Source: Quadrisphaera sp. RL12-1S (GTDB lineage Bacteria > Actinomycetota > Actinomycetes > Actinomycetales > Quadrisphaeraceae). From it: a stretch of DNA of 64,000 bases. The notes beneath the pieces are model-generated. The model searched no databases. It was not told where the DNA came from and saw only the letters and a list, made by a program, of their open reading frames with translations. Shown in pieces: positions 2,611-35,078 of this stretch. The translations under genes and the position numbers were made by a program. The first letter of the stretch is position 1, and the number at the start of each line of letters is the position of its first letter. The stretch lies in the NCBI RefSeq assembly GCF_014270065.1, contig NZ_JACNME010000006.1, positions 1 to 64,000 on the forward strand, given 5' to 3'.

Positions 2611-2698
2611 CCGCGCCACCACCGCCGCACACCCCCCGCAGCTCCCGACACCAGGGGTCCGGCGGACGACCTCCGAGTGCGCCGGAGCGCACCCGGTC

Positions 2699-8788: not shown

Positions 8789-8794
8789 CGGGCC

Positions 8795-8830: not shown

Positions 8831-8840
8831 CGGCCGTGCG

Positions 8841-11459: not shown

Positions 11460-11540
11460 CTGCGTCCCCCTCGATCAGCGACCAACCCTACGGTCCCCAG
11501 CAGAAGCCGCCAGGTCTCGTCGACCGCTCGGAGTACGCCT

Positions 11541-12425: not shown

Positions 12426-12440
12426 CGGCGCCGCGCCGTC
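12424..12440. terminator. Small hairpin between convergent genes
   Basis: GACGGCG (12424-12430), loop CCG, CGCCGTC (12434-12440). It overlaps the last codon of the TIM-barrel gene and fills the gap to the convergent dehydrogenase. It is short, so termination is only plausible. Confidence 0.4.
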
Positions 12441-12441
12441 G

Positions 12442-13230: not shown

Positions 13231-13339
13231 GCGCCGATCCCACCACGACCGAGCCGATCACCACCCGCCCGGTGCGGAGGGGGGCTGGTCCGCTGGTGCG
13301 CCGGGCGGGCCGACCCGGCTGGTCTGGGAGGATGGCGGC

Positions 13340-15991: not shown

Positions 15992-16040
15992 CGGACGGTC
16001 CACGCGCCGCCCGACCGCGCTCGTCAGGAGCACCGACCGA

Positions 16041-20423: not shown

Positions 20424-22058
20424 TCAGCTCTGGGTGCCGGCGCCCTCGGCGCCCTCAGCGGCCTCCGCCGAGCCGGCGGCCTCCGCGGCCTCCGCCTTCG
20501 GCTTGCGGGTGCGCTTGGGCTTCTCCTCCGCGGCCGGCGCCTCAGCGCCCTCGGACGAGCCCTCGGCAGCGGCCTCGGCGTCAGCGGCCGGCTTCTTGGC
20601 ACGGGTGCGCTTCGGCTTCTCCTCCGCGGCCGGCGCCTCGGCGGCCTCGGCGGCCTCGTCAGCCGAGCCCTCGGCGTCAGCGGCCGGCTTCTTGGCACGG
20701 GTGCGCTTGGGCTTCTCCTCGGCGGCCGGCGCCTCAGCGCCCTCGGACGAGCCCTCGGCGGCCTCGTCGGAGGAGCCCTCGGCGTCGTCGTCCTCGTCGC
20801 CGAGGTCGACGACCTTGCCGGAGGCGTCCGTGACGGTGGCCTTCTCCAGCACCGAGGCCAGCGCCTTGCGACGGGCGACCTCCTGCACCAGGGCGGGCAC
20901 CTGGCCGGCCTGGTCCATCGCCTGGGCGAAGGAGTTCGGGTCCATGCCGTAGGCGGGGGCCTGGGCGACGATGTACTCGACCAGCTCCTGCTGGCCCACC
21001 GTGACCTCCTCGGCCTCGGCCACGGCGTCCAGGAGGAACTGCGTGCGCAGCACGCGGCGGGTCTCCTCGGTCACCTCGGCGCGGTGCTCGTCGTCCTCGA
21101 GGCGGGACTCGTTCTCGAGGTGGCGGTGCACCTCGTCCTCGACGACGCCGTCCGGCACGGGGATCTCGACCTGCTCCAGCAGCGCCTCGAGCACCTTGTC
21201 GCGCGCCTGCACGCCCTGGCGGAACTCGGCCTCGTCCTGGGCCTTGGCGCGCAGGTCGGCGCGGAGCTCGTCCACGGTGTCGAACTCGCTGGCCAGCTGC
21301 GCGAAGTCGTCGTCGAGCTCGGGCAGCTCACGCACCTTGACCGACTTCACGACGACGGTGACCTCGGCGGACTCGCCGGCGTGCTCGCCACCGGCGAGCG
21401 TGGTGGTGAAGGAGCGCTCCTCGTCCACGGAGGCGCCCTCGAGGGCGTCGTCCATGCCCTCGAGCATGGTGCCGCGGCCCACGACGTAGGTGATGCCCTC
21501 GGCGGAGTCGATCTGCTCGCCGTCGATCTCGGCCTTGAGGTCGAGGGTGACGGAGTCCTCGGTCTGCACGGCGCGCTCGACGGGCACCAGGGTGCCGAAG
21601 CGGACGCGGAGCTCCTCGAGCTTGGCGTCGACGTCGGCGTCGGTGACCTCGACGTCGTCCACGGAGACGGCGATGGTGGAGAAGTCGGGCAGGTCGATGG
21701 TCGGGCGGACGTCCACCTCGGCGGTGAACTTCAGCTCGCCGGCGTCGGCGCCCTCGCCGACCGGCACCTCGGTGATCTCCACGTCGGGCTGGCCCAGCGG
21801 GCGGACCGAGCTCTCCTGCACGGCCTGCTGGTAGAAGCCGGGCAGCGCGTCGTTGACGGCCTCCTGGATGACGACGCCGCGCCCGAAGCGCTGGTCGATG
21901 ACGCGCGCGGGAACCTTGCCGCGGCGGAAGCCCGGCACCGTGACCTGGCCGCCGATCGACTTGTACGCCTTGTCGAGGCTCGGCTTCAGCTCGGCGAAGG
22001 ACACCTCGACGGTGAGCTTGACCCGCGTCGGGTTGAGGGTCTCGACGTCGCTCTTCAC
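20424..22058 (-). CDS. tig: Trigger factor with long Lys/Ala/Glu-rich tail
   Basis: Ribosome-bound chaperone and prolyl isomerase. The first about 420 residues are a full trigger factor: ribosome-binding domain with GFRRGKVPARVIDQRFG (the GFRxGxxP signature), a PPIase-like middle domain, and the helical C-terminal chaperone domain. The product is 544 residues against the usual 430-480, because of a tail of about 120 residues: first acidic (DEDDDAEGSSDEAAEGSSEG), then three copies of APAAEEKPKRTR, two of them followed by AKKPAADAE. At DNA level the copies are spaced exactly 96 bases. The ATG start at 22058 gives MKSDVETLNPTRVKLTVEV, as in homologues. A clpP operon follows after a strong terminator. 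Confidence 0.97.
   Translation of the reverse strand: MKSDVETLNPTRVKLTVEVSFAELKPSLDKAYKSIGGQVTVPGFRRGKVPARVIDQRFGRGVVIQEAVNDALPGFYQQAVQESSVRPLGQPDVEITEVPVGEGADAGELKFTAEVDVRPTIDLPDFSTIAVSVDDVEVTDADVDAKLEELRVRFGTLVPVERAVQTEDSVTLDLKAEIDGEQIDSAEGITYVVGRGTMLEGMDDALEGASVDEERSFTTTLAGGEHAGESAEVTVVVKSVKVRELPELDDDFAQLASEFDTVDELRADLRAKAQDEAEFRQGVQARDKVLEALLEQVEIPVPDGVVEDEVHRHLENESRLEDDEHRAEVTEETRRVLRTQFLLDAVAEAEEVTVGQQELVEYIVAQAPAYGMDPNSFAQAMDQAGQVPALVQEVARRKALASVLEKATVTDASGKVVDLGDEDDDAEGSSDEAAEGSSEGAEAPAAEEKPKRTRAKKPAADAEGSADEAAEAAEAPAAEEKPKRTRAKKPAADAEAAAEGSSEGAEAPAAEEKPKRTRKPKAEAAEAAGSAEAAEGAEGAGTQS
20511..20770 (-). repeat. 96-bp tandem repeat inside tig
   Basis: The segment beginning GCGCTTGGGCTTCTCC (plus-strand reading; the second copy reads GCGCTTCGGC) recurs at 20511, 20607 and 20703 with a period of 96 bases (32 codons). 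It encodes the repeated KPKRTRAKKP tail of trigger factor. The third unit is partial. Confidence 0.8.
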
Positions 22059-22203
22059 GGCAGGGGTTCTCCAGGTCTTGAGACGGTCGGTCAGTCAGGC
22101 GTTCCGGTCCAGCGGGCGGTGCGCGCCGGCGACGCGGTGGTGCGAGCTCGCGCGGGCAGCACCGAACCGCGCCGGGCACTGCCGGCCACCTTATCGCCGC
22201 TCG

Positions 22204-22277
22204 TCGGGGTACCCGGATTCGAACCGGGGGCCTTCCGCTCCCAAAGCGGACGCGCTACCTGGCTGCGCCACACCCCG
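22204..22277 (-). tRNA. tRNA-Pro (UGG)
   Basis: 74-base cloverleaf on the minus strand: acceptor CGGGGTG pairs with TACCCCG, discriminator A, D-arm GCGCAGCCAGGTAGCGC, anticodon stem TCCGC/GCGGA with loop TTTGGGA (anticodon TGG), and T-arm GGTTCGAATCC. CCA is not encoded. Confidence 0.97.
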
Positions 22278-22390
22278 TGCCCAGCGGGCGGTGTGAAGGC
22301 TACGCGCCCGCGACCGCGCGCCGTGCCGGTACGCTGCTGCCCGCGCCGTCCGCCTCGGCCCCGGAACCCGGGGTCGTGACTGACGGTCAT

Positions 22391-22461
22391 GCGGATGTAG
22401 CTCAATGGTAGAGCCTCAGTCTTCCAAACTGATTACGCGGGTTCGATTCCCGTCATCCGCT
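22391..22461 (+). tRNA. tRNA-Gly (UCC)
   Basis: 71-base cloverleaf: acceptor GCGGATG with CATCCGC, D-arm AGCTCAATGGTAGAGC, anticodon stem TCAGT/ACTGA with loop CTTCCAA (anticodon TCC), and T-arm GGTTCGATTCC, discriminator T. CCA is not encoded. It is divergent from tRNA-Pro. Confidence 0.97.
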
Positions 22462-22487
22462 CCGCTGCCGGCGGCAGGATGCCCCGC

Positions 22488-22976
22488 ATGTCCCGCCCCG
22501 TCGACTTCTCGACCGTCTCCACCGCCGGGCTGGAGTCCTCCCCCGTCGCCGGGGCCCTCGCCGGCCTGCGCGCCAACGAGGCCCGCTACTTCCACACGAA
22601 GTTCGGCCACGCCTTCACCACCGAGCCGGCCGGGCCGGGGCAGCCGGGCGCGGAGCTCGCCGGCTGGGTCGCCTCGCTGCTCGCCTCCGAGCGCGACCTC
22701 GTCATCACCTCACCGCCGCTGGAGGCCACCACCTTCGTGGTCGAGGGCACCAGCTGGACGTACGTCTTCCACGCGTCCGGTCTGAGCGTGAACGTGCTCT
22801 ACGGCCTGGAGGAGGGCTCCAAGCGCGCCGTCGGGTTCAAGCTCTGCGACGGCATGGAGGTGCCGGCGGAGCTGGCCGACCGGTTCAGGTTCGCCCGGCA
22901 GCGCTCGAAGCTCGCCGGCACCATCCGCGGCTCGTTCTTCGTCATCAAGGGCGAGCACACCCCGCCGCGGCTCTGA
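22488..22976 (+). CDS. Conserved-looking hypothetical protein
   Basis: I do not recognise a family. The 162-residue product is soluble, with no signal peptide or membrane segment. It has alternating beta-like stretches in the middle (RDLVITSPPLEATTFVVEG, SWTYVFHASGLSVNVLYGLE) and a basic C-terminus (FARQRSKLAGTIRGSFFVIK). Codon use is strongly GC3-biased and no competing frame is plausible. The ATG at 22488 (MSRPVDFSTV) with GGCAGGATG upstream is chosen; an in-frame ATG at 22479 is possible. It begins 26 bases after tRNA-Gly on the same strand, so it may be read through from the tRNA transcript. Confidence 0.7.
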   Translation: MSRPVDFSTVSTAGLESSPVAGALAGLRANEARYFHTKFGHAFTTEPAGPGQPGAELAGWVASLLASERDLVITSPPLEATTFVVEGTSWTYVFHASGLSVNVLYGLEEGSKRAVGFKLCDGMEVPAELADRFRFARQRSKLAGTIRGSFFVIKGEHTPPRL

Positions 22977-23050
22977 GGAGCCCACCGCGCCGAGCGGCCC
23001 CCGCCGGAGCTCCGGCGACGACTCCGGCCGCCAGCCCGCCTCCGGGAGGG

Positions 23051-24310
23051 TCAGGACGCGACGAGCACGGCGGTGAGGGAGGCCCCCACGCCGACGACCG
23101 TGACGACGGCGCCCAGCAGCAGGCCGCGGCGCGCGCCGGCGAAGCGCGGTGACGTGCGGAACGGCTGCTCGACCACCACCAGCGTCAGGGCGGCGAGCGG
23201 ACCCGCCACGAAGAGCTCCAGCGCGAGCAGCGCGGGCCAGCCCGACAGGCCCAGCCGCTCCCCGGCGAAGGTCACCGGCACGTGCCACAGGTACCAGGAG
23301 TAGGAGGCGCGCCCCGCCCACCGCACCGGGGCCCACGCGAGCAGGCGCCCCACCCCGAGCCGGGCTCCCCGGGCGTCGGCGAGCCCGGGCGTGCCGACGG
23401 CGACGAGCGCCACGGTCGCCAGGGTGGGCACGAGGGCTGCCGACCCGGGGTAGGTGACCGACCCGGTCCACACGGCGCTCGTGAGCACCACGAGCAGCGC
23501 CCCCCACCCGAGCAGCGGCACCCAGCGCCGGACCGGGTCCAGCCGGCCGCCCGCCGCGAGCTGCTCGAGGCGCGGAGCCGCCAGCGCGAGCAGGGCCCCC
23601 GCTGCCAGCTGCCACGCGCGGGTCGGCGAGGACAGGTAGGCCAGTGCGGGCACGAGGGGCGTGAACACCACCGAGCAGGCCAGGGAGACCACGGCCACCG
23701 CGCCCGCCGCCAGGGCGAGGGAGCGGCGCAGCGAGGTCCCGCGCCGGCGGGCCGCCGCCACCGCGAGCAGCACCAGCGGCGGCCACAGCAGGTAGAACTG
23801 CTCCTCCACCGCCAGCGACCAGTAGTGGATGAGCGGGCTGCCGGCGGCGTCGGGGTGCAGCTCCACCGGGTCAGCCAGGCCCGAGCGCCAGTTGGCCACC
23901 TGGAGCGCGGCCGCCAGGCCGTCGCGTCCGGTGGTGGCGAGCATCCCCGGGGCGAGGACCGCCGTCGTGGCCAGGGTCACGAGCAGGACGACGACGGCCG
24001 CGGGCAGGATCCGCCGCGCGCGCCGGGCGTAGAAGTCGGCCAGGCGCACCCGGCCGGTGCGCTCCACCTCGCGGACCAGCAGACCGGTGATGAGGAAGCC
24101 GGAGATGACGAAGAAGACGTCCACCCCGAGTCGGCCGCCGCCGGCGCCGGGCACGCCGGCGTGGAAGAGGAGGACCAGGCCGAGCGCGACGGCGCGCAGG
24201 CCCTCGACGTCGGGGCGGAACCCGCCCGACGTCGCGGCGGGCGGTCGCCCGCTCGCGCGGGCTGCGGTGCGTGCGCTGGTCGGCGCCACCGGCGCCGGCG
24301 GTCGTGCCAC
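23051..24310 (-). CDS. Acyltransferase 3 family membrane protein (OafA-type)
   Basis: Integral membrane O-acyltransferase of 419 residues with about ten hydrophobic segments. Family landmarks are FRPDVEGLRAVALGLVLLFH near 31-50 (with the putative catalytic His), VDVFFVISGFLITGLL, YARRARRILPA, and HYWSLAVEEQFYLLWP. Such proteins acetylate or acylate sugars, peptidoglycan or antibiotics at the membrane. Unlike OafA or OatA it has no C-terminal SGNH domain, so a soluble partner or direct transfer must be assumed. The start is GTG at 24310. A 7-7-7 dyad CTACTAC/GTAGTAG lies 18 bases upstream, and an M56 peptidase and BlaI-type repressor are upstream on the same strand, so control by that pair is plausible. 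Confidence 0.92.
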   Translation of the reverse strand: MARPPAPVAPTSARTAARASGRPPAATSGGFRPDVEGLRAVALGLVLLFHAGVPGAGGGRLGVDVFFVISGFLITGLLVREVERTGRVRLADFYARRARRILPAAVVVLLVTLATTAVLAPGMLATTGRDGLAAALQVANWRSGLADPVELHPDAAGSPLIHYWSLAVEEQFYLLWPPLVLLAVAAARRRGTSLRRSLALAAGAVAVVSLACSVVFTPLVPALAYLSSPTRAWQLAAGALLALAAPRLEQLAAGGRLDPVRRWVPLLGWGALLVVLTSAVWTGSVTYPGSAALVPTLATVALVAVGTPGLADARGARLGVGRLLAWAPVRWAGRASYSWYLWHVPVTFAGERLGLSGWPALLALELFVAGPLAALTLVVVEQPFRTSPRFAGARRGLLLGAVVTVVGVGASLTAVLVAS

Positions 24311-24327
24311 GAGGTCCCCCTGCTCGT

Positions 24328-24348
24328 CTACTACTCAGAACGTAGTAG
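24328..24348. promoter_or_regulatory. BlaI/MecI-like dyad operator
   Basis: CTACTAC (24328-24334) and GTAGTAG (24342-24348) form a perfect inverted repeat around TCAGAAC. BlaI/MecI operators use the same TACTAC/GTAGTA half-sites, normally 4 bases apart; here the distance is 7. It sits between the M56 peptidase stop and the acyltransferase start. The AT content is striking against its surroundings. Confidence 0.55.
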
Positions 24349-24407
24349 TGGTGCGGGAGGGTGCGCACGCGGGGTGCGAGCCCGCTGCGCCGATCGGGTG
24401 GCCGGCG

Positions 24408-25406
24408 CTAGGGGACGAGGCGCTCCAGGGCCCGCTGGCCGGCCTCGTGCAGCAGGTGCACCGAGGCGAGGCCGGCGCGGTCGTGCCCTCCGCTGCGCAC
24501 GTGCTGGAGCACCTCGGCGGTGTCCTCGACGGCGTGACCGCCCGCGGCCAGCAGCAGCGCCAGGCACAGGGCCCCCGCGACCGCCAGCGGACGACCGCTC
24601 CCGGGTCGCCCGGCGAGCAGGGCCCGCACGCGCTGCACCACGTCGCCCTCGCCACCGGCCAGGGCCACGCTGCGCCACCCCGGACGGCCCGAGAGCGCGG
24701 TGCGCAGCAGACCGGCCCGCGCCACGGCCCGCGCCACCAGCGGCCGGTCACCGCCGAGGGACGCGGCCGCGGACTCGTCCGCCCAGCGCTCGCTGGCGTA
24801 CCGCACAGCGGGCAGCAGCCCGACGAGCAGCGGGTCCAGCGCGGCCGACCAGGCGGTGGCAGCGCGCAGGAGGTCGTGGTGGTCGCGCAGGTGGGCGCGC
24901 TCGTGGGCCAGCAGGGCCGCGCGCTCCTGCACCGGGAGGGCGTCCATGAGCGCGCGCGAGACCACCACGCGCCCGCCGCGGCTGGGCAGCGCGAACGCCT
25001 CGGCGCCGTCGTCCACCACCACGACACCGCCGACGGCACCGCCCAGGCGGGAGCAGAGCTCGTCCGCGGCGCGCAGCGCCCGCGCCCTGCGGCGCCACAG
25101 CACCAGCGCCCGCACGAGACCCGCCGCCAGCAGGCCCACCGCCGCCAGCGAGGCCGCAGCGGGCACGGGGACGTGGTGGGCGAAGCGGCCGGCGTCGTAG
25201 CCGAGCAGCGAGGCCACCGCGTGCACCCGGGCCACGAGGACGAACAGGTGCAGCACCAGCGCGAGCGAGGTGGTCACCGCGCTGCCGACGGCGCAGGCCG
25301 CCAGCACCAGGGTGGCCGCCTGCGGCGGGCAGCGGCGCGCCACCAGGGGCGCCGCCAGCGCGAGCAGGACGCTGGCGACCAGGGGCGCCTGCAGCGCGTA
25401 GAGCAC
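24408..25406 (-). CDS. M56 family metallopeptidase (BlaR1-like, no sensor domain)
   Basis: A 332-residue membrane protein with hydrophobic segments at about 6-25, 31-58, 84-105 and about 263-280. The zinc metalloprotease motif is HERAH at 168-172 (LLAHERAHLRDHHD), and the downstream third-ligand region is RWADESAAASLGGDRP. In BlaR1/MecR1 such a domain cleaves the BlaI repressor after the sensor binds a beta-lactam. Here there is no C-terminal penicillin-binding sensor (BlaR1 is near 590 residues), so the signal, if any, is different or absent. The GTG start lies 10 bases after the BlaI-type gene, so they form one operon, as is common in actinobacteria. Confidence 0.92.
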   Translation of the reverse strand: MLYALQAPLVASVLLALAAPLVARRCPPQAATLVLAACAVGSAVTTSLALVLHLFVLVARVHAVASLLGYDAGRFAHHVPVPAAASLAAVGLLAAGLVRALVLWRRRARALRAADELCSRLGGAVGGVVVVDDGAEAFALPSRGGRVVVSRALMDALPVQERAALLAHERAHLRDHHDLLRAATAWSAALDPLLVGLLPAVRYASERWADESAAASLGGDRPLVARAVARAGLLRTALSGRPGWRSVALAGGEGDVVQRVRALLAGRPGSGRPLAVAGALCLALLLAAGGHAVEDTAEVLQHVRSGGHDRAGLASVHLLHEAGQRALERLVP

Positions 25407-25416
25407 GCCGGTCCCC

Positions 25417-25782
25417 TCAGCCGCGCCGCTCGGCGTCGCGCAGGAGCCGCTCGAGCACCGGCACGTCCTCCGGGGCGAGGTCTCCCACGAAGCGGGCGAG
25501 CACGGCGTCGCGCCGGTCGCTCGTCTCCAGCGCCTGGCGCATGCGGGCCGCGGCGACCTCGGCGGCGTCGGCCACCCGGTAGCGGTGCGCCCGCCCGTCG
25601 CGCTCCCGCGCCGCGAGGCCCTTGTCGTGCAGGCGGGCCAGCGTCGTCATGACGGTGGTGTACGCCAGGTCCGCACCCAGGCGCTCGCGCACCTCGGCGG
25701 GGGTGGACGGGACACCAGCGGCGGTGAGCGCCGCGAGGACCTCCCGCTCGAGGTCACCTCGCGCGCGTCGCGCGCCGTCCAT
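25417..25782 (-). CDS. BlaI/MecI/CopY family transcriptional repressor
   Basis: A 121-residue winged-helix protein. The recognition region is AYTTVMTTLARLHDKGLAARERDGRAHRYR, which matches the family pattern T-V-x-T-x-x-x-R-L-x-x-K-G-x-x-x-R and the wing. The C-terminal helix (DAVLARFVGDLAPEDVPVLERLL) is the dimerisation part cleaved in BlaI. The start is ATG at 25782 (MDGARRARGD), with GTG codons just before it as alternatives. It is the first or second gene of an operon with the M56 peptidase. The only BlaI-like dyad I see nearby is not in front of this gene but in front of the acyltransferase. Confidence 0.93.
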   Translation of the reverse strand: MDGARRARGDLEREVLAALTAAGVPSTPAEVRERLGADLAYTTVMTTLARLHDKGLAARERDGRAHRYRVADAAEVAAARMRQALETSDRRDAVLARFVGDLAPEDVPVLERLLRDAERRG

Positions 25783-25795
25783 CACCACCGGCCCA

Positions 25796-25963
25796 TCATG
25801 CCTGCTCAGCGGCCCAGTCCTCCAGCGGGACGACCTGCGAGGTCGGCCCGTCCAGGCTGGCGGCGTCGAGCAGCGCCTCGAGCGAGGCGATGAGCTGCTC
25901 CGTCGCGGTGTCCACGTCGGCGAGGATCGACGCGCGGCGGAGGGGATGTCCACCGGTGAGCAC
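25796..25963 (-). CDS. Possible small protein upstream of blaI-type gene
   Basis: A 55-residue frame starting at GTG 25963 and ending 13 bases before the repressor start. The composition is protein-like rather than shadow-like: an acidic amphipathic stretch ATEQLIASLEALLDAAS, then VVPLEDWAAEQA. An in-frame stop lies just upstream, so it cannot be longer. The ribosome binding site is poor (GGA abuts the start), which lowers confidence. I recognise no family. It could be a leader peptide, a remnant of a larger gene or chance. Confidence 0.35.
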   Translation of the reverse strand: MLTGGHPLRRASILADVDTATEQLIASLEALLDAASLDGPTSQVVPLEDWAAEQA

Positions 25964-26037
25964 TCCGACCGGGGGACGCGGTCACCGTCGCGGGCGCCGC
26001 ACCTCCCCCGAGCGGACGCCTGCGGACCACCGCCCCC

Positions 26038-26463
26038 TCACCCGGCCGGAGCCGCCGCGCCCGGGTCCGACGGCCCCGGCGCCAGCACGGCGCCCAGGAG
26101 GCCGGGGAAGCGCCGCTCGAGGTCGTCGCGGCGGAGGGTGACCATCCGGTGCCGGCCCGCGGGGGTGGTGCGGACCACGCCGGCCTCGCGCAGCACCTTG
26201 AGCTGGTGGGACCGCGTGGACTTCGGGACCACGCCGCCGACCGCCTCGCAGGCCAGCCCGGCGGGCGGAGCGGCGGCGACGGCGCGCACGATGGCCAGCC
26301 TCGCCGGGTCGGCGAGAGCGGCCAGGACGGCGGTGACCTCGAGCTCCCCCACGTCCGGGTGCGGGAGCTCGCGTCCCGGGGGCCGCTCCGGACCCGCTCC
26401 CGCGTCGCCCCCGGCGGGCCCTCGCGCGGCCCGCTCGCGCGCCTCCTGCGCCACCTCGTCCAC
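26038..26463 (-). CDS. ArsR-family helix-turn-helix regulator
   Basis: A 141-residue winged-helix protein with the ArsR pattern: LADPARLAIVRAVAA (helix 1-2 with the D-P-x-R signature), and the recognition helix PKSTRSHQLKVLREAGVVRTTPAGRHRMVTLRRDDL. No Cys-rich metal site (ELCVCDL) is visible, so it is probably not a classic metal sensor. The start taken is GTG at 26463; a GTG a few codons later is possible. It is divergent from an MFS exporter with a 115-base gap, the usual layout for a local repressor of that exporter. No clear dyad operator is visible in the gap. Confidence 0.88.
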   Translation of the reverse strand: MDEVAQEARERAARGPAGGDAGAGPERPPGRELPHPDVGELEVTAVLAALADPARLAIVRAVAAAPPAGLACEAVGGVVPKSTRSHQLKVLREAGVVRTTPAGRHRMVTLRRDDLERRFPGLLGAVLAPGPSDPGAAAPAG

Positions 26464-26578
26464 GCCGCCAGCGTAGGGCGGCGCCGCATGCTCGGTCCGG
26501 CGTGCGTGGAACTGTCCGCCCGCTCGGTCTACGCTCCGACTGTTCGACTCCCGTCGTACCGAGAGGTCGGAGGTCCCC

Positions 26579-27874
26579 GTGGACAGCCCGTCGCACCCGA
26601 GCCGGACCCGGCCGCACCGGAGGGCCTGGCCGCGCTGGGGCAGACGGCCCGCCTTCGCCCTCGTCGGTGGGCTGGTCGTGCTCTTCCTCGCGGCGTCGGC
26701 GGCGCCCTCCCCGCTGTACCCGCTCTGGGCGTCGCAGTGGGGAGCGTCCCAGGGGGCCCTCACCGCCGTGTTCGCCGTCTACGCCCTCGCGCTGCTCGCC
26801 GCGCTGCTCGTCTTCGGCCGGGCCTCCGACGTGGTGGGCCGCCGCCCGGTGCTCCTGGTCGCCACCGCCCTCGAGCTGGTGAGCCTGCTGGTCTTCCTCG
26901 CGGCGTCCGACGTGCCGCTGCTGCTCCTGGCGCGCGCCGTCCAGGGCGTCGCCACCGGCCTGGCCGTCGGCACGGCCGGTGCCGCGCTGCTCGACCTCGC
27001 GCCGCCCGGGCGACCGGCTCGGGGAGCGCTGGTGAACAGCGCCGCCCCCACGTTCGGCCTGGGGCTGGGGGCGCTCGGGTCGGGCACCGTCGTGGAGCTG
27101 TCCGCCGGACCGGCTCGCATCGTCTTCGGAGCCCTCGCCGCCCTGGTCGCCCTCGCCCTGGTGGCGCTGGTCGCCCTGCCGGAGACCTCGGGCACCGGGC
27201 CTGGGCCTCAGCGCCGCGCCGCGCTGCTGCGCTCGCTGCGCCCCAGCGCCGCGGTGCCGGTCGCGTCCCGGCGGCGCTTCACCTCGGCCGTCCCGGTGTT
27301 CGTCGCCACCTGGGCGCTGGGCGCCCTGCAGCTGTCGCTGGGGCCGTCGGTGGCGCGAGAGGTGCTCCGCGTCGAGCACCCGCTGGCGGGCGCAGCGCTG
27401 GTGGCCTCCTTCAGCGTGGCCGGTGGGACCGCAGCCCTCCTGGGCGCCCGTGCCGGCAGCAGGGCCCTGGAGCTGGGCGGAGCGCTCGCCCTCGCCGCAG
27501 GCAGCCTGGTCAGCGCCGCGGGCCTGGTGACCGCGTCCCTGCCCGCCTACGCCGCAGGGACCGCCGTGGCGGGCGCGGGCTTCGGCGCAGCCTTCGCCGG
27601 CGCTCTGCGAGCCGTGGCCGCCACCGCCGCAGCCGACCGGCGCGGCGGCCTGCTCACCAGCGTCTACGTGGTCAGCTACCTCGCCTTCAGCCTGCCCGCG
27701 CTGGCCGCCGGGGAGCTGTCCGGCCGGCTCGGGCTGCTGCCGGTGGTGGTGGCCTACACCGCCGCCGTCGTCGTCCTCGCCGCGGTCGCGGCGGTGGTGG
27801 CCGGGCGAGCCCCAGCACCCGCCCGCGCAGCCGTCTCCACCTCCGCGACCTGCTCACCGGTGCAGACGCCGTAG
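26579..27874 (+). CDS. MFS transporter (drug-efflux type)
   Basis: A 431-residue major facilitator with about 12 membrane segments. The loop 2-3 signature is FGRASDVVGRRPVLLVA (a form of G-x-x-x-D-x-x-G-R-R), and the motif C-like region is GTAGAALLDLAPPGRPARGALVNSAAP. The basic N-terminus (about 28 residues, RTRPHRRAWPRWGRRP) is cytoplasmic. The GTG start at 26579 has GGAGG at 6 bases. The divergent ArsR-type regulator probably controls it. Substrate unknown. The SAM riboswitch aptamer begins about 10 bases after its stop with no hairpin terminator between, so read-through into the riboswitch region is possible. Confidence 0.9.
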   Translation: MDSPSHPSRTRPHRRAWPRWGRRPAFALVGGLVVLFLAASAAPSPLYPLWASQWGASQGALTAVFAVYALALLAALLVFGRASDVVGRRPVLLVATALELVSLLVFLAASDVPLLLLARAVQGVATGLAVGTAGAALLDLAPPGRPARGALVNSAAPTFGLGLGALGSGTVVELSAGPARIVFGALAALVALALVALVALPETSGTGPGPQRRAALLRSLRPSAAVPVASRRRFTSAVPVFVATWALGALQLSLGPSVAREVLRVEHPLAGAALVASFSVAGGTAALLGARAGSRALELGGALALAAGSLVSAAGLVTASLPAYAAGTAVAGAGFGAAFAGALRAVAATAAADRRGGLLTSVYVVSYLAFSLPALAAGELSGRLGLLPVVVAYTAAVVVLAAVAAVVAGRAPAPARAAVSTSATCSPVQTP

Positions 27875-27883
27875 GATCGCCTC

Positions 27884-27980
27884 GACCATCCCGAGCGGCC
27901 GAGAGACCTGGCTCAGCGACGCCGCAGCAACCACCCGTGGGGCCCCCGCGGACCGGTGCTACCGCCAGGACCGATGGAGG
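27884..27980 (+). promoter_or_regulatory. SAM-I (S-box) riboswitch
   Basis: Plus-strand aptamer: P1 CCATC (27886-27890) pairs with GATGG (27973-27977). Inside are the conserved GAGCGGCCGAGAGACCTGGC (P2 with kink-turn), GACGCCGCAGCAACC and CGGTGCTACCGCCAGGACC blocks of the SAM-I class in high-GC genomes. The Shine-Dalgarno GGAGG (27976-27980) overlaps the 3' strand of P1, so ligand-stabilised P1 would hide it: translational control. No terminator with a U-tract follows. Confidence 0.88.
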
Positions 27981-27985
27981 CCGTC

Positions 27986-28066
27986 GTGTCCAGCGCCGTC
28001 AGCGCACCCGCGCACCAGCCCGCCCGCTCCGGGGCGCAGCAGCCACCCTCGCCGCTCAGCGCGTGA
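27986..28066 (+). CDS. 26-residue reading frame under the SAM riboswitch
   Basis: GTG start 5 bases after the GGAGG of the riboswitch, encoding VSSAVSAPAHQPARSGAQQP plus six residues, then TGA at 28064. The start signals are strong, but the peptide is Ala/Pro/Ser-rich and has no family I know. Its end overlaps the end of the convergent membrane gene by 11 bases. It may be a regulatory leader peptide, or the surviving N-terminus of a methionine-pathway gene that was lost. Confidence 0.5.
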   Translation: MSSAVSAPAHQPARSGAQQPPSPLSA

Positions 28067-28544
28067 CGAGCGGCACCGCGGCCGCGGCGGCGGCCAGGGC
28101 AGCCACCGCGGCGAACAGCAGCCGCACCGCGTCCGCCCGGCGCAGCCGGCGCACCAGCGCCTCGGACCGGCCGCTGCTGGCGAGCCGCCCGTGGGCCGGG
28201 CCGGCCGTCGTGGCCGTCACGAGGACGACGACGGCGGCGGCGGCCACCGACACCAGCGCCGCCGCGCCGGGCCACCCCGCCGGCGGTCCCGCGACGAGCA
28301 CCCACCCGTCGGCGAGGCCGAGCAGCCCGTACACGAGCCCGACGACGGGCGTGATCCGCCGGCGGTGCAGGTCGTGCGCCCGGCGCCAGCGGGCCGCGGC
28401 TCCCCCGCCGTCGTCGTCCTGCTCCGGACCGGCCGCGAGCAGCACCGGGTAGACCAGCGCGGTCACCACCAGCTGGAACCCCAGGTGCAGCGCGGTGGCC
28501 GCCACCAGCAGCACGAGCCCGGCACTCCCCGCCCCAGCGACCAC
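28056..28544 (-). CDS. Small integral membrane protein, unknown function
   Basis: A 162-residue protein with four hydrophobic segments: about 8-36 (LVLLVAATALHLGFQLVVTALVYP without its first and last residues is the core), about 65-82 (VVGLVYGLLGLADGWVL), about 88-110, and about 138-160. The polar loops contain RWRRAHDLHRRR. The first segment resembles DUF1772-like membrane proteins, but I cannot assign a function. The start is GTG at 28544. It is divergent from acs across 50 bases and converges on the riboswitch-controlled frame, overlapping its end. Composition and hydropathy make it a real gene rather than a shadow. Confidence 0.75.
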   Translation of the reverse strand: MVAGAGSAGLVLLVAATALHLGFQLVVTALVYPVLLAAGPEQDDDGGGAAARWRRAHDLHRRRITPVVGLVYGLLGLADGWVLVAGPPAGWPGAAALVSVAAAAVVVLVTATTAGPAHGRLASSGRSEALVRRLRRADAVRLLFAAVAALAAAAAAVPLVTR

Positions 28545-28594
28545 TCCCCCAGCCTGACCCCTGACCCCCGCCCCCGCCCGGAGGACCCGTCCCG

Positions 28595-30706
28595 ATGTCC
28601 CGCCCCCTCGCCGCGCCCCTGTCGGCGCAGCCCTCGAACGCCACCCTCACCACCCTGCTCGCCGAGGAGCGCGCGTTCCGCGCGCCGGGGGCCGTCGCGC
28701 AGGTCGCCAACCTCGACGCCGCCACCGCGGAGGCCTGGCGCCAGCGCGGCGAGGAGGACCCGGAGGGCTTCTGGGCCGAGCAGGCCGCGCACCTGGAGTG
28801 GGAGACGCCGTGGCACACGGTGCTGCAGTGGTCGCCGCCGCAGCTCGCCGACGGAGCCGACCCGGCCGACCCGCTGGCGGAGCTGTCCGTGCCGTCGGCG
28901 CGCTGGTTCGACGGCGGCACCCTCAACGCTGCCGTCAACTGCCTGGACCGGCACGTGGCCGCAGGCCACGGGGACCGGGTGGCCACGCACTTCGAGGGCG
29001 AGCGCGGCGACACCCGCACGATCACCTACGCCGACCTGCTCGCCGAGGTCAGCCGGGCCGCCAACGCGCTCACGGCGCTCGGCGTGGAGCCGGGCGACCG
29101 CGTGGTGCTGTACCTGCCCGTCATCCCCGAGACGCTGGTGACGGTGCTGGCGTGCGCGCGCATCGGCGCCGTCCACTCGCTGGTGTTCGGCGGCTTCTCC
29201 GCGGAGGCCCTGCGGTTCCGGGTGGCGGACACGACGGCGAAGGTGGTGGTCGCCACCGACGGGCAGTTCCGCCGCGGCAAGGCGGTGCCGGTGAAGGCGG
29301 CCGTCGACGAGGCCGTTGCCGGGCTCGACCACGTCGAGCACGTGCTGGTGGTCCGCCGCACCGGCGAGGAGGCCTACGCCGGGGAGCCCATCCCCTGGAC
29401 CGAGGGGCGCGACGTGTGGTGGCACGACGTGGTCGACACCGCGGACGCCGTCCACGAGGCCGTCGCGTTCCCCGCCGAGCACCCGCTCTTCATCATCTAC
29501 ACGTCGGGCTCCACCGGGAAGCCGAAGGGCCTGCTGCACACCACGGGCGGCTACCTCACCCACGCCCGGTACGCGCACTGGGCGCACTTCGACGCCCACC
29601 CGGAGACCGACGTCCACTGGTGCACCGCCGACCTCGCGTGGGTGACGGCGCACTCCTTCGCCATCTACGGGCCGCTGCTCAACGGCGTCACGCAGGTCAT
29701 GTACGAGGGCGTGCCCGACTTCCCCGCCCCGGGCCGGCACTTCGAGATCATCGAGAGGTACCGGGCCACCACGTACTACACCGCGCCGACCCTCATCAGG
29801 GCCTGCATGACCTGGGGCGACGACGTGCCCGCCCGCCACGACCTGTCGAGCCTGAAGCTGCTCGGCAGCGTCGGGGAGCCCATCAACCCCGAGGTGTGGA
29901 TGTGGTTCCGCGAGAACGTCGGCGGCGGCACCGCGCCCGTCGTCGACACGTGGTGGCAGTCCGAGACCGGCGCCACCGTCGTGGCGCCGCTGCCCGGCGC
30001 GACCACCCTCAAGCCGGGTTCGGCCACCCGCCCGCTGCCGGGCCTGGACGCCGCCGTCGTCGACGACACCGGCGCCGAGGTGCAGCCCGGCCAGGGCGGC
30101 TGGCTCGTGGTGAGGAAGCCGTGGCCGGGCATGGCCCGCACGGTGTGGGGGAACCCTGAGCGCTACCGCGACGCCTACTGGCGGCAGTTCGCCGCGCAGG
30201 GCTACTACGCCGCCGGTGACGGCGCCCGTTACGACGCCGACCGGTACCTGTGGCTGCTCGGGCGCCTGGACGACGTCGTCAACGTCTCCGGGCACCGCCT
30301 GTCGACCACCGAGGTGGAGTCGGCGCTGGTGGCGCACCCCGACGTCGCCGAGGCCGGCGTGGTGGGCGTCGCCGACGAGCTGACCGGCCAGGCGGTGGCC
30401 GCCTTCGTCATCCCGTCGCGCCGGTCGGTGCTCGACGACGACGACGCCCACCCCGCGCTGGAGGCCGCGCTGCGCGCCCAGGTCGCGACCGTCATCGGGC
30501 CGGTGGCCAAGCCCAAGCACGTCGTGGTGGTGCGCGACCTGCCCAAGACCCGCAGCGGCAAGATCATGCGGCGCATCCTCGGCGACCTGCTCGAGGGCAG
30601 GCCGCCGGGCGACACGACGTCGCTGTCCGACGAGCGCGCCGTCGACGCCGTCCGCGACGGCATCGCCGCCCGCCGCGCCAGGACGACCACCACCGCAGCC
30701 CGCTGA
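28595..30706 (+). CDS. acs: Acetyl-CoA synthetase (AMP-forming)
   Basis: Activates acetate to acetyl-AMP and then acetyl-CoA. The product is 703 residues (typical 640-660, with a longer N-terminus and tail). Landmarks: RWFDGGTLNAAVNCLDRHV, the adenylate loop IIYTSGSTGKPKGLLHTTGGY, DTWWQSETG, YAAGDGARYDADRYLWLLGR, and the regulatory acetylation site KTRSGKIMRRIL (Lys656). These are Acs rather than acetoacetyl-CoA synthetase features, although propionate could be used. ATG at 28595 with GGAGG upstream. metY follows after 31 bases and the CoA-binding gene after that, so the three may be an operon. A SAM riboswitch lies 600 bases upstream on the same strand. Confidence 0.94.
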   Translation: MSRPLAAPLSAQPSNATLTTLLAEERAFRAPGAVAQVANLDAATAEAWRQRGEEDPEGFWAEQAAHLEWETPWHTVLQWSPPQLADGADPADPLAELSVPSARWFDGGTLNAAVNCLDRHVAAGHGDRVATHFEGERGDTRTITYADLLAEVSRAANALTALGVEPGDRVVLYLPVIPETLVTVLACARIGAVHSLVFGGFSAEALRFRVADTTAKVVVATDGQFRRGKAVPVKAAVDEAVAGLDHVEHVLVVRRTGEEAYAGEPIPWTEGRDVWWHDVVDTADAVHEAVAFPAEHPLFIIYTSGSTGKPKGLLHTTGGYLTHARYAHWAHFDAHPETDVHWCTADLAWVTAHSFAIYGPLLNGVTQVMYEGVPDFPAPGRHFEIIERYRATTYYTAPTLIRACMTWGDDVPARHDLSSLKLLGSVGEPINPEVWMWFRENVGGGTAPVVDTWWQSETGATVVAPLPGATTLKPGSATRPLPGLDAAVVDDTGAEVQPGQGGWLVVRKPWPGMARTVWGNPERYRDAYWRQFAAQGYYAAGDGARYDADRYLWLLGRLDDVVNVSGHRLSTTEVESALVAHPDVAEAGVVGVADELTGQAVAAFVIPSRRSVLDDDDAHPALEAALRAQVATVIGPVAKPKHVVVVRDLPKTRSGKIMRRILGDLLEGRPPGDTTSLSDERAVDAVRDGIAARRARTTTTAAR

Positions 30707-30737
30707 CCCCCCTGACACGCAGAGAGAGGATGGACGC

Positions 30738-32156
30738 ATGAGCCAGGACACCCCCGGCGGCGCTGCCGTGAACCCGGAGACCGCCGGCCAGGTCGGCACC
30801 GAGGACGCCGCCCCGCAGACCGTGCCCGGAGCGGTCTCCCCCGACCCGCTCGCGGAGCGGCCCAGCGGTGAGCGCACGTGGGGCTTCCGCACCCGCTCGC
30901 TGCACGCCGGCGGCACCCCCGACTCGGCGACCGGCGCCCGCGCCGTCCCGATCTACCAGTCGACGTCGTTCGTGTTCGAGGACACCGCCGACGCCGCCAA
31001 CCTCTTCAGCCTGCAGAAGTACGGGAACATCTACTCCCGCCTGGCCAACCCCACGGTCGCGGCGTTCGAGGAGCGCATCGCGTCCCTGGAGGGCGGCATC
31101 GGCGCCGTGGCCACGGCCAGCGGCATGAGCGCGGAGTTCATCACCCTCGCCGCGCTGGCCGGGGCGGGTGACCACGTCGTCGCCAGCTCGCAGCTGTACG
31201 GCGGCACGGTGACGCTGCTCGACGTGACGCTGCGCCGCTTCGGCGTGGACACGACGTTCGTGGCCGGCACCGACCCGGCCGACTACGCCGCCGCCATCCG
31301 CCCGAACACCAAGGCGGTCTACACCGAGGTCGTGGCCAACCCCTCGGGGCAGGTGGCCGACCTGGAGGGCCTGGCGCGCGTCGCGCACGCCGAGCACGTG
31401 CCGCTGGTCGTCGACGCCACGCTCACCCCGCCGTACCTCGTGCGCCCGATCGAGCACGGCGCCGACATCGTCATCCACTCCGCCACCAAGTTCCTCGGCG
31501 GCCACGGGACGACGCTGGGCGGCGTGGTCGTCGAGAGCGGTCGCTTCGACTGGGGCAGCGGCCGCTTCCCGCAGATGACCGAGCCCGTGCCCAGCTACAA
31601 CGGCATCCGCTGGTGGCAGAACTTCGGCGAGTACGGCTTCCTCACCAAGCTGCGCTCCGAGCAGCTGCGCGACACCGGCCCGTCGCTGTCCGCGCAGTCG
31701 GCGTTCCAGCTGCTGCAGGGCGTCGAGACGCTCGCCCCGCGCATGGAGGAGCACCTGCGCAACGCCCGCGGCGTGGCCGAGTGGCTGGACGGCGACCCCC
31801 GCGTCGCGTGGGTCAACTGGGCCGGGCTGCCCTCGCACGTGCACCACGAGCGGGCCAAGAAGTACCTGCCGCTGGGGCCGAGCTCGGTGTTCTCCTTCGG
31901 CGTCGCGGGTGACCGGGAGGCCGGGCGCCGCTTCATCGAGGCGGTGCAGCTCGCGAGCCACCTGGCGAACGTGGGCGACACCCGCACCCTCGTCATCCAC
32001 CCCGCGTCCACCACGCACCAGCAGCTGAGCGCCGAGCAGCTCGAGGCCGGCGGCGTGAAGCCGGAGCTGGTCCGCATCTCCGTCGGGCTGGAAGACCTCG
32101 ACGACATCCTCTGGGACCTCGACCAGGCCCTGACCGCCGCCGTCAAGGAGGGCTGA
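30738..32156 (+). CDS. metY: O-acetylhomoserine sulfhydrylase (aminocarboxypropyltransferase)
   Basis: PLP enzyme that makes homocysteine from O-acetylhomoserine and sulfide. The product is 472 residues, including a 40-residue polar N-terminal extension. Motifs: TRSLHAGGTPDSATGARAVP, YQSTSFVFEDT, YSRLANPTVAAFEERIASLE, and the PLP lysine in HSATKFLGGHG (Lys251). The long insertion PVPSYNGIRWWQNFGEYGFL is typical of MetY as opposed to MetB/MetC. The ATG follows AGAGAGAGG. It overlaps no neighbour and is followed 3 bases later by the CoA-binding gene. Its presence close to a SAM riboswitch is suggestive, but the riboswitch is separated by acs and a convergent gene. Confidence 0.95.
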   Translation: MSQDTPGGAAVNPETAGQVGTEDAAPQTVPGAVSPDPLAERPSGERTWGFRTRSLHAGGTPDSATGARAVPIYQSTSFVFEDTADAANLFSLQKYGNIYSRLANPTVAAFEERIASLEGGIGAVATASGMSAEFITLAALAGAGDHVVASSQLYGGTVTLLDVTLRRFGVDTTFVAGTDPADYAAAIRPNTKAVYTEVVANPSGQVADLEGLARVAHAEHVPLVVDATLTPPYLVRPIEHGADIVIHSATKFLGGHGTTLGGVVVESGRFDWGSGRFPQMTEPVPSYNGIRWWQNFGEYGFLTKLRSEQLRDTGPSLSAQSAFQLLQGVETLAPRMEEHLRNARGVAEWLDGDPRVAWVNWAGLPSHVHHERAKKYLPLGPSSVFSFGVAGDREAGRRFIEAVQLASHLANVGDTRTLVIHPASTTHQQLSAEQLEAGGVKPELVRISVGLEDLDDILWDLDQALTAAVKEG

Positions 32157-32159
32157 CGC

Positions 32160-32687
32160 ATGACGCTGACCGTGGACAACACCCGCACCTGGGTGGGACC
32201 GACCGCCCCCGAGCGCCTCGCGCTGCTGCGCGAGGCGAAGAGCATCGCCATCGTCGGCGCGTCGGAGAACCAGGCCCGCGCCAGCTTCTTCGTGGCGACG
32301 TACCTGCTCTCCAGCTCCCCGTACGACGTGTACTTCATCAACCCGCGCGCCACGGAGATCCTCGGGCGCCCGGTGTACCCGAGCCTCGCCGACCTGCCGG
32401 TGGTGCCCGACGTCGTGGACGTGTTCCGCCGCCACGACGACCTGCCGAGCGTGCTCGACGAGGTGCTGGAGCTGCGGGAGTCGAAGGGCGGCGGCACGTC
32501 GCCGTCCGTGCTGTGGCTGCAGCTGGGCTCCTGGCACGAGGAGGTCGCCCACCGCGCCGAGGCCGCCGGCCTGTCGGTGGTCATGGACCGCTGCGTCAAG
32601 ATCGAGCACGCCCGCTTCCACGGCGGCCTGCACCTCGCGGGCTTCGACACCGGCGTCATCTCCAGCAGGCGGCAGATCCGCGCCTGA
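32160..32687 (+). CDS. CoA-binding (YccU-type) Rossmann protein
   Basis: A 175-residue protein of the CoA_binding family. It has the Rossmann core SIAIVGASENQARASFFVATY, then DVYFINPRATEILGRPVYPSLADLP, VVDVFRRHDDLPSV, LWLQLGSWHEEVAHRAEAAGL and VMDRCVKIEHARF with a conserved Cys. The fold binds CoA, but the physiological role is unsettled. It starts 3 bases after the metY stop and is certainly cotranscribed. metY and a CoA-binding gene are neighbours in many actinobacteria, which suggests a link to sulfur amino acid metabolism. A hairpin terminator follows. Confidence 0.9.
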   Translation: MTLTVDNTRTWVGPTAPERLALLREAKSIAIVGASENQARASFFVATYLLSSSPYDVYFINPRATEILGRPVYPSLADLPVVPDVVDVFRRHDDLPSVLDEVLELRESKGGGTSPSVLWLQLGSWHEEVAHRAEAAGLSVVMDRCVKIEHARFHGGLHLAGFDTGVISSRRQIRA

Positions 32688-32702
32688 TCCAGCGTTGCAG
32701 TC

Positions 32703-32735
32703 GGGGGCGGTGCTCAGCACCGCAGCACCGCCCCC
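32703..32735 (+). terminator. Terminator after the metY unit
   Basis: Perfect 12-bp inverted repeat GGGGGCGGTGCT (32703-32714) with 32724-32735, 9-base loop, 15 bases after the stop. Confidence 0.75.
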
Positions 32736-32786
32736 ACCCCGGCACCCCCGGGGTCCTCGCACCACCCACGACCCCGGAGGTCACCT

Positions 32787-33608
32787 GTGCTCCGCCGCTC
32801 GCCCTTCGTCCTGCTCGCCGCTGCCGCCGCGCTGGCCCTGTCCGCCTGCGGCGGAGGGTCCCCGGCCGACAGCATCGTCGGCGGCGCCAGCTCCAGCGCC
32901 GCGCCGTCCGGCTCCCCCTCCGGCACGGGCGGCGTCCTGCGCGTGGCCTCCGAGGGCACCTACGCACCGTTCACGTACCACGACCAGAAGGACGGCGGGA
33001 AGCTCACCGGGTACGACGTCGACGTCATCACCGCGGTCGCCCAGAAGATGGGGATGCAGGTGCAGTTCACCGACGTCACCTGGGACGCCATCTTCGCGGG
33101 GCTGCAGGCCGGCCGGTACGACGTGGTCGCCAACCAGGTCACCGTCAACCCCGAGCGCCAGGCCCTGTACGACTTCTCCACGCCGTACACCACGTCCACC
33201 GGCGCGATCATCACCCGCGCCGACGACACCTCCATCACGTCCCTGGCCGGCCTGAAGGGCAAGACCACCGCCCAGTCTCTGACCAGCAACTGGGCCCAGG
33301 TGGCCAAGGACGCCGGCGCGAACGTCGAGGGCGTGGAGGGCTTCACCCAGGCCGTCACCCTGCTCAAGCAGGGCCGCGTGGACGCCACCGTCAACGACGA
33401 CCTCGCTGTGCTGGACTACCTCAAGACCACCGGCGACACCTCGGTGAAGGTGGCCGCCAAGACCACGGACACCAGTCAGCAGGCCTTCGCCCTGACCAAG
33501 GGCTCGGCGCTGACCCCGAAGGTCGACGAGGCGCTCGCCGAGCTCAAGGCGGACGGCACCCTGGCCACGATCTCGAAGAAGTACTTCGGCGAGGACGTCT
33601 CGGGCTGA
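32787..33608 (+). CDS. Amino acid ABC transporter substrate-binding lipoprotein
   Basis: Captures a polar amino acid outside the membrane and delivers it to the permease. The 273-residue product has a lipoprotein signal (LALSACGGG, lipid Cys about 21), a Ser/Gly linker, and a family 3 solute-binding domain: LRVASEGTYAPFTYHD, LTGYDVDVITAVAQKMG, FTDVTWDAIFAGLQAGRYDV, YDFSTPYTTSTGAIITR. The order binding protein, permease, ATPase on one strand with tight spacing marks one operon. The closest functional class is cystine/glutamine-type importers. Given the metY unit just upstream cystine is an attractive guess, but the binding residues do not prove it. Confidence 0.93.
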   Translation: MLRRSPFVLLAAAAALALSACGGGSPADSIVGGASSSAAPSGSPSGTGGVLRVASEGTYAPFTYHDQKDGGKLTGYDVDVITAVAQKMGMQVQFTDVTWDAIFAGLQAGRYDVVANQVTVNPERQALYDFSTPYTTSTGAIITRADDTSITSLAGLKGKTTAQSLTSNWAQVAKDAGANVEGVEGFTQAVTLLKQGRVDATVNDDLAVLDYLKTTGDTSVKVAAKTTDTSQQAFALTKGSALTPKVDEALAELKADGTLATISKKYFGEDVSG

Positions 33609-33642
33609 CGCCGGGGTCGGGGCGAGGCCGCGGAGGAGACCG

Positions 33643-34305
33643 GTGGTCGACTGGGACCTGGTGCGCAGCTCGGCGTGGCCGCTGCTGCAGGGGCTGGTGC
33701 TGGGCACCATCCCCCTGACGGCGCTGTCGTTCGCGTTCGGGCTGGCCATCGCCGTCGTCGTCGCCCTCATGCGGCTCTCGCCCGTGGCGCTGGTCTCGGG
33801 CGCCGCGCGGGTGTACGTCTCGGCCATCCGCGGCACGCCGCTGCTCGTGCAGCTGTTCATCGTGTTCTACGCGCTGCCTGCGGTCGGCCTGACCATCGCG
33901 CCGTGGCCGAGCGCGATCCTCGCCCTGAGCCTCAACGTGGGCGGGTACGCCGCGGAGGTGGTGCGCAGCGCGATCCTCTCGGTGCCCCGCGGGCAGTGGG
34001 AGGCGGCCGCCACCGTCGGCATGGGCTACGGCACCACGCTGCGGCGCGTGGTGGCCCCGCAGGCCGCGCGCCTGGCGGTGCCGCCGCTGAGCAACACGCT
34101 GATCTCGCTGCTCAAGGACACCTCGCTGGTGTCGGTGGTGCTGGTGACGGAGATGTTCCGGGTGGCGCAGCAGATCGCGGCGCCCACCTTCCAGTTCCTC
34201 ACGCTGTACGGCCTGGCCGCCGTCTACTACTGGGTGGTCTGCGCGGTCCTCGCGGCGCTGCAGGACCGGCTGGAGGTCCGCTTGAACAGGTACGTGACCC
34301 AGTGA
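33643..34305 (+). CDS. Amino acid ABC transporter permease (HisM/TcyL type)
   Basis: A 220-residue permease with about five membrane segments. The EAA loop that docks on the ATPase is WEAAATVGMGYGTTLRRVVA followed by PQAARLAVPPL. The N-terminal segment PLLQGLVLGTIPLTALSFAF and the RGTPLLVQLFIVFYALP signature are characteristic of polar amino acid permeases. The GTG start at 33643 is preceded by GGAGGAG. Its stop overlaps the ATPase start as GTGA. A single permease gene implies a homodimeric channel. Confidence 0.94.
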   Translation: MVDWDLVRSSAWPLLQGLVLGTIPLTALSFAFGLAIAVVVALMRLSPVALVSGAARVYVSAIRGTPLLVQLFIVFYALPAVGLTIAPWPSAILALSLNVGGYAAEVVRSAILSVPRGQWEAAATVGMGYGTTLRRVVAPQAARLAVPPLSNTLISLLKDTSLVSVVLVTEMFRVAQQIAAPTFQFLTLYGLAAVYYWVVCAVLAALQDRLEVRLNRYVTQ

Positions 34306-35078
34306 GCGCGCACCCCCTGCTGGAGGCCGCGGGCCTGCAGAAGTCCTTCGGGCAGACCCGCGTGCTGCGCGGCGTCGACCTCGCCGTGCCCGCCGGCACC
34401 GTGAGCGTGCTCATCGGTCCGTCCGGGTCGGGCAAGACCACCGTGCTGCGCTGCCTCAACGCCCTCGAGCGCCCCGAGTCCGGTGTCGTGCGCATCGGGG
34501 ACGTCTCGGTGGACTTCTCCGCCCTGCCGCAGCAGGGACGCCGCGCTGCCGTGCGCGCCGAGGCGCGGCTGCGGGCCCAGAGCGGCATGGTCTTCCAGGC
34601 CCACCACCTCTTCCCGCACCGCACGGCGCTGGAGAACCTCCTCGAGGGGCCCGTCGTCGTCCAGGGCCGCCCGCGGGAGGAGGCCCGGGCCGAGGCGCTG
34701 GTCCTCCTGGAGCGGGTGGGCCTCGCAGGCCGCGAGGACGCCCTGCCGTCGCAGCTCTCAGGCGGGCAGCAGCAGCGCGTGGGCATCGCGCGGGCGCTCG
34801 CGATCCGCCCGCAGGTGGTGCTCTTCGACGAGCCGACCTCCGCGCTCGACCCGGAGCTGGTGGGCGAGGTGCTCGCCGTGATGCGGGACCTCGCCGAGCA
34901 GGGCACCACGATGGTGGTGGTCACCCACGAGATCCGCTTCGCCCAGCAGGTCGCCGACCAGGTGCTGTTCCTCGACGGCGGCGTCGTGGTGGAGCGCGGA
35001 CCGGCGGCGCAGGTGATCGCGGACCCGCGTGAGGAGCGCACCCGCCGCTTCCTGCGGCGCCTGCTCGACCCGCTCTGA
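34302..35078 (+). CDS. Amino acid ABC transporter ATP-binding protein
   Basis: A 258-residue ATPase: Walker A IGPSGSGKTT (about 38-47), Q-loop MVFQAHHLFPH, signature LSGGQQQRVGIARAL, Walker B VVLFDEPTSALDPE and H-loop VVTHE. The sequence between Walker A and the Q-loop is longer than in GlnQ, with a basic insert (AAVRAEARLRAQS) seen in TcyN-type ATPases. The GTG start overlaps the permease stop by four bases, indicating translational coupling. Confidence 0.96.
   Translation: MSAHPLLEAAGLQKSFGQTRVLRGVDLAVPAGTVSVLIGPSGSGKTTVLRCLNALERPESGVVRIGDVSVDFSALPQQGRRAAVRAEARLRAQSGMVFQAHHLFPHRTALENLLEGPVVVQGRPREEARAEALVLLERVGLAGREDALPSQLSGGQQQRVGIARALAIRPQVVLFDEPTSALDPELVGEVLAVMRDLAEQGTTMVVVTHEIRFAQQVADQVLFLDGGVVVERGPAAQVIADPREERTRRFLRRLLDPL

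Follow-up and report, generated by a model that had tools for sequence, protein, structure and literature searches.

A SAM-I riboswitch in Quadrisphaera sp. RL12-1S probably orphaned by deletion of the ssuBAC operon behind it

The riboswitch locus in Quadrisphaera sp. RL12-1S

The window analysed here is a 64,000-nucleotide stretch of the Quadrisphaera sp. RL12-1S genome, in which a SAM-I riboswitch is followed by a 26-codon frame that runs into the 3' end of a convergent membrane-protein gene, with further genes of the riboswitch strand beyond. The features of the locus, compared with those of five congeners (G001 to G005), are as follows.

26579-27874, + strand: upstream MFS transporter gene (PF07690; flank comparison)
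27872-27877, + strand: -10-like hexamer, here TAGGAT, lying 11-12 nt upstream of the aptamer in each of the six genomes of the genus
27883-27980, + strand: SAM-I riboswitch aptamer (RF00162, 44.7 bits; 98/98 bases equal to G003)
27976-27980, + strand: Shine-Dalgarno GGAGG, the last five aptamer bases, the first GG paired in P1
27986-28066, + strand: 26-codon frame, beginning as the SsuB N-terminus (VSSAVSAPA) and continuing as a variable linker and the putative junction (compared with G001-G003)
28032-28055, no strand: candidate deletion junction, 24 bp against about 2839 bp in G003, between the end of BLAST homology (28031) and the membrane-gene stop (28056)
28056-28544, - strand: intact convergent membrane-protein gene of 162 codons, also found between ssuC and acs in G001-G003
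28595-30706, + strand: acs, acetate--CoA ligase (NF001208 and TIGR02188, above cut-off)
30738-32156, + strand: metY, O-acetylhomoserine sulfhydrylase (TIGR01326, above cut-off)
32160-32687, + strand: CoA-binding domain protein gene (PF13380), behind metY in relatives too

A covariance-model search of the window returned an RF00162 match over model positions 1-108, that is, the whole model (E 5.9e-7), confirming the complete aptamer described by the first-pass annotation; only its start shifts, from 27884 to 27883. Against the gathering score of 44.4 bits the match passes marginally, and the orthologous aptamer of G002, at 42.2 bits, lies under that score. The marginal score is offset because the window aptamer is identical over its whole length to that of another species, G003, where an intact operon comes next. 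In P1, six of eight positions are paired, and the expression platform is tied to this helix: GGAGG forms its 3' end, as had been noted before, and GTG follows 5 nt on. A hairpin of Shine-Dalgarno and GTG was predicted by minimum-free-energy folding in RL12-1S, G002, G003, G004 and G005, the same pairing being absent from G001; the folds of the remaining loci varied, and this kind of folding cannot represent the SAM-bound state.

The -10-like box has the same position in all six genomes and reads TAAGAT in G001, the background for TANNNT being 0.057 on average per 616 nt of the + strand of the window. It shares bases with the stop codon (TAG) of the upstream MFS gene, which among the five congeners is present at this site in G002 only. 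The RL12-1S genome holds five SAM-I matches, three of them above the cut-off. The other four lie before genes for a solute-binding protein, a metY-like protein (cut by the end of the locus and just under the TIGR01326 cut-off), a flavin reductase and the dimethylsulfone monooxygenase SfnG, which is above its model cut-off.

The short frame, of 26 codons as previously annotated, runs from GTG 27986 to TGA 28064-28066; starting instead at the in-frame ATG at 27974, which lies within P1, it would have 30 codons. The 11-base overlap with the convergent gene, which ends at 28056, was likewise found as described. The peptide shares VSSAVSAPA with SsuB of G003, contains no Cys and has no match to the NCBIfam leader-peptide models (NF042934 and relatives). 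The membrane gene is 77-81% identical in three congeners and has no Pfam or NCBIfam match. At this place no match to it was found in G004, G005, or two genomes of other genera, G006 (genus g2) and G008 (genus g3); its site is exactly the point of the ssuC-acs overlap seen in G004, G005 and G008. More distant relatives of the gene are found at another place in strain INWT6 (L052), with 61% identity, and in Cellulomonas (L051) and Nocardioides (L054), with 50-52%. The first-pass annotation had also listed acs, metY and a CoA-binding gene as the next genes on the riboswitch strand, and all three were recovered.

The orthologous riboswitch precedes ssuBAC in congeners

Comparison of the locus in related genomes, suggested as a check by the first-pass annotation, was carried out with six Quadrisphaera genomes including that of RL12-1S, all of which have SAM-I matches. 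The orthologous riboswitch, marked by CCATCCCGAGC, was found in all five other genomes (L016, L024, L026, L028 and L030), followed in each by a GTG 5-6 nt behind the aptamer and by ssuB-ssuA-ssuC, the genes of an aliphatic-sulfonate ABC importer. In four of the five, this GTG opens ssuB in frame (275-278 codons). In G004 (L026 / L034), the ssuB core is out of the conserved GTG frame and in frame with the ATG inside P1, for which a frameshift, a sequencing error or a switch of start site are possible causes. SsuA, tested in G001, scores above the curated TIGR01728 cut-off; for SsuB (G003) and SsuC (G001), the aliphatic-sulfonate models score best, yet below their equivalog cut-offs. G003 is filed as Streptomyces sp. 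NP160, groups in the same genus as Quadrisphaera granulorum and is probably misnamed.

The same arrangement extends beyond the genus, to G006 and to G008, where a short Cys-containing leader frame stands between riboswitch and ssuBAC, and to other families of the order (G111, G079 and G144); this extra-genus scope covers these five genomes, not the whole order. At the end of ssuC, its stop codon and the probable start codon of acs overlap as ATGA in G004 and G005 and as GTGA in G008, and in G006 metY follows ssuC directly, acs being absent between them. The CoA-binding gene stands behind metY in G004, G006 and G008, and the G005 contig stops within metY. Thus, in relatives without the membrane gene, acs (where present), metY and the CoA-binding gene continue the ssuBAC operon, and we consider acs-metY-CoA-binding likely to be the distal part of the ancestral operon that this riboswitch headed. 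That would account for the methionine gene that lies 2.8 kb behind the switch.

About 2.8 kb are missing behind the riboswitch

Positions 6512-9350 of G003 (about 2839 bp) begin around ssuB codon 16, stop one base short of the membrane-gene stop codon and correspond to 24 bp in the window, so that some 2.8 kb, comprising ssuB from codon ~16 on and everything up to the end of ssuC, are missing here. The G003 membrane gene ends at 9351, which was equated with the stop at 28056 in the window by length and neighbouring letters. When each relative was compared with the window by BLAST, left-flank homology ended at 28029-28031 (28008 for G005), and right-flank homology restarted at 28074-28090 in G001-G003 and at 28641-28643, within acs, for G004 and G005, both of which have no membrane gene; breakpoints are placed no finer than about 24 bp. 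Both flanks are colinear, with G002 1-6429 corresponding to 21633-28029 and G002 9303-16001 to 28090-34801.

The RL12-1S genome has a completeness rating of 100%, and searching it with SsuA, SsuB and SsuC gave no closely similar copy. The best matches were 24% identical for ssuA (a single match over part of the query), 53% for ssuB and 25-34% for ssuC, compared with 85-95% between the ssuBAC proteins of the congeners, self-matches excluded. Since ssuBAC is present in the five other genomes, loss in the lineage of RL12-1S is the simple reading. One loss is enough, because the acs+metY tree (unrooted, six rows) places the window as sister to G001+G002+G003, with G004+G005 on the opposite side.

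With a probability of roughly 0.88, we read the locus as a SAM-I riboswitch orphaned by deletion of its operon, whose direct output would be a stump without function. The 26-codon frame, as judged from the alignments, would consist of the beginning of SsuB joined to the distal edge of the deletion, with the overlap made by the junction; it is most likely the stump of the first lost gene and not a new type of target. Counting against this reading, the conserved GTG opens ssuB directly in four, not five, congeners, G004 being the exception. The earlier suggestion that a methionine gene had been lost therefore stands as to the loss, given the orthologous riboswitch before ssuBAC in five congeners with ssuB in frame in four, and not as to the gene: the first gene lost would have encoded the ATPase of a sulfonate importer and not an enzyme of methionine biosynthesis, though metY belongs to the same gene string in relatives.

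No decay is seen in the aptamer or in the 31 bases after it, RL12-1S and G003 being equal across 129 bases. Because of this identity, set against differences from G003 of 8 and 10% in acs and metY, respectively, we take the loss of ssuBAC to be recent, although this aptamer is in any case conserved within the genus, and the absence of decay would also fit selection for a remaining role.

Proposed history and mechanism

In the history that we propose, the riboswitch would have headed an ancestral operon ssuB-ssuA-ssuC-acs-metY-CoA-binding. Going by its anatomy and the established logic of SAM-I riboswitches, P1 would open at low SAM, freeing the Shine-Dalgarno for ssuB translation, and would close over the Shine-Dalgarno at high SAM. 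The membrane gene would have arrived between ssuC and acs, in antisense orientation, in the common ancestor of RL12-1S and G001-G003. Afterwards, in the RL12-1S lineage alone of the six genomes, a deletion of about 2.8 kb would have begun at ssuB codon ~16 and reached the ssuC stop, leaving the promoter box, aptamer, Shine-Dalgarno, start codon and SsuB N-terminus, from which the reading frame by chance runs on to 26 codons and into the 3' end of its neighbour. The aptamer, -10-like box, Shine-Dalgarno and start codon are intact. Folding and transcription of the switch are probably preserved; its RNA would today be SAM-responsive at the level of translation and translate only the SsuB stump.

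Other SAM-I riboswitches precede short Cys-containing frames

A side result concerns the frames that open behind SAM-I riboswitches in this order. Sixty-four SAM-I loci from genus, family and order were classed, a capped, best-scoring subset in which 37 loci come from the 42 family matches and 27 from a longer list for the order. Frames were classed mechanically at the Shine-Dalgarno, with those under 60 codons called short, giving 25 short frames, 32 long frames and 7 unclassable loci. Cys is present in 21 of the 24 short frames other than that of the window, against 9.5 expected from base composition, a comparison among related loci that carries no strict probability. Among these 64 best-scoring loci, then, SAM-I riboswitches often precede short Cys-containing frames. 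Of six Cys-containing short peptides compared with the leader-peptide model NF042934, four gave a match, each scoring under the cut-off.

Short Cys frames occur at L001, L002, L006, L007, L009-L012, L015, L017, L018, L029, L044, L048, L064-L066, L069, L079, L081 and L082, and several carry an RRLHIDL-like motif. The genes behind them include those for a solute-binding protein (L001), a metY-like protein (L002) and SsuB (L048), the others having been judged by eye. It is possible that at such loci a SAM switch is stacked on a cysteine attenuator; if SAM-I switches gate a Cys leader peptide, two sulfur signals would be stacked. The stump in the window does not belong among these loci.

Alternative explanations

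The deletion history is shared by an explanation that differs on present function, namely that the riboswitch remains at the head of an operon that is now shortened and noncontiguous, in which a transcript from TAGGAT crosses the antisense membrane gene to reach acs-metY-CoA-binding, SAM acting via translation of the stump and Rho-type polarity. Cotranscription of these genes with the riboswitch is the likely ancestral state, because the probable acs start shares bases with the ssuC stop in G004, G005 and G008, and noncontiguous operons are reported from S. aureus (PMC7154746). However, the translational switch works on ssuB, which is now gone, and the roughly 500 nt past the stump are untranslated and would be a poor template for read-through. 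We consider this explanation unlikely. More doubtful again is that the switch is under selection as promoter and SAM sensor of such an operon, producing a SAM-gated RNA that would be antisense to the membrane gene and supply acs-metY-CoA-binding by read-through.

Over the ~615-650 nt upstream of acs, the + strand contains no TANNNT box in any of the four genomes with the membrane gene. An argument for read-through from this absence was dropped, zero such hexamers in 614 nt having P 0.88 in shuffles; the absence is uninformative, and the hexamer is also missing before the membrane gene. No terminator-like or sigma-70 consensus sites were found in 27700-28700, and the shuffles of the scan gave none either, so these absences are equally uninformative.

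An RNA antisense to 28056-28544 had been put forward as one output of the riboswitch, and a SAM-dependent antisense RNA acting on the membrane gene would suit the convergent layout, with the + strand aptamer at the 3' end of a - strand gene and an 11-base overlap. Antisense-acting SAM riboswitches are described, a survey giving 56 antisense and 8,039 sense SAM cases (PMC9943018). In G001-G003, however, this aptamer serves ssuBAC as a sense switch and lies some 2.9 kb from the membrane gene. The closeness of the two in RL12-1S would be a by-product of the deletion, and the antisense layout is not conserved, all five congeners having the sense operon. The membrane gene has no family match in Pfam or NCBIfam and no known sulfur link, and the same survey proposes that antisense cases beside pseudogenes are fortuitous. 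We therefore regard an antisense output as improbable.

The other proposed output, the short peptide acting as a functional leader or small protein of 26 (or 30) residues, gains some plausibility from the 25 of 64 SAM-I loci, window included, that open a short frame here (Cys in 21 of the 25). The window peptide, which is without Cys and without a leader-model match, is shared with the congeners only over the first SsuB residues, and such a function is very improbable. An assembly error in this draft of 27 contigs is hardly credible, the junction lying inside a 273-kb contig of a genome rated complete in which searches with SsuA, SsuB and SsuC gave distant relatives only.

Comparison with known systems

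An orphaned riboswitch at this locus would mean that the arrangement sought by screens for antisense or peptide outputs, a riboswitch with a tiny frame and a convergent gene, can also be produced by the deletion of an operon, recognisable only through close relatives. The relatives also point to a SAM-riboswitch-headed operon for sulfonate import and metY in this order. In the literature searched, covered in part and mostly as titles and beginnings of abstracts, no paper was evidently about actinobacterial SAM-I riboswitches that precede ssuBAC or Cys leader peptides.

Compared with other SAM-I (S-box) riboswitches of RF00162, the window copy is alike in its complete aptamer, which matches the whole model and in relatives stands before a sulfur-uptake gene, and unlike them in that no complete gene lies behind it. 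Relative to an SsuBAC operon, it retains the promoter box, riboswitch, start codon and beginning of ssuB, the remainder having apparently been deleted. With the S. aureus noncontiguous operon menE-menC-MW1733-ytkD-MW1731 (PMC7154746), the locus shares a gene order with an opposite-strand gene, here between the riboswitch and acs-metY-CoA-binding, whereas its own cotranscription is putative. It resembles the antisense-acting SAM riboswitch of the C. acetobutylicum ubiG-mccB-mccA operon (PMC9943018) in that the riboswitch lies where a gene converging on it has its 3' end. Unlike that system, the layout in the window appears to be deletion-made, no sulfur link of the convergent gene was found, and the congeners of RL12-1S are not antisense at close range. 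The locus fits the proposal made in the survey that antisense riboswitches beside pseudogenes are fortuitous.
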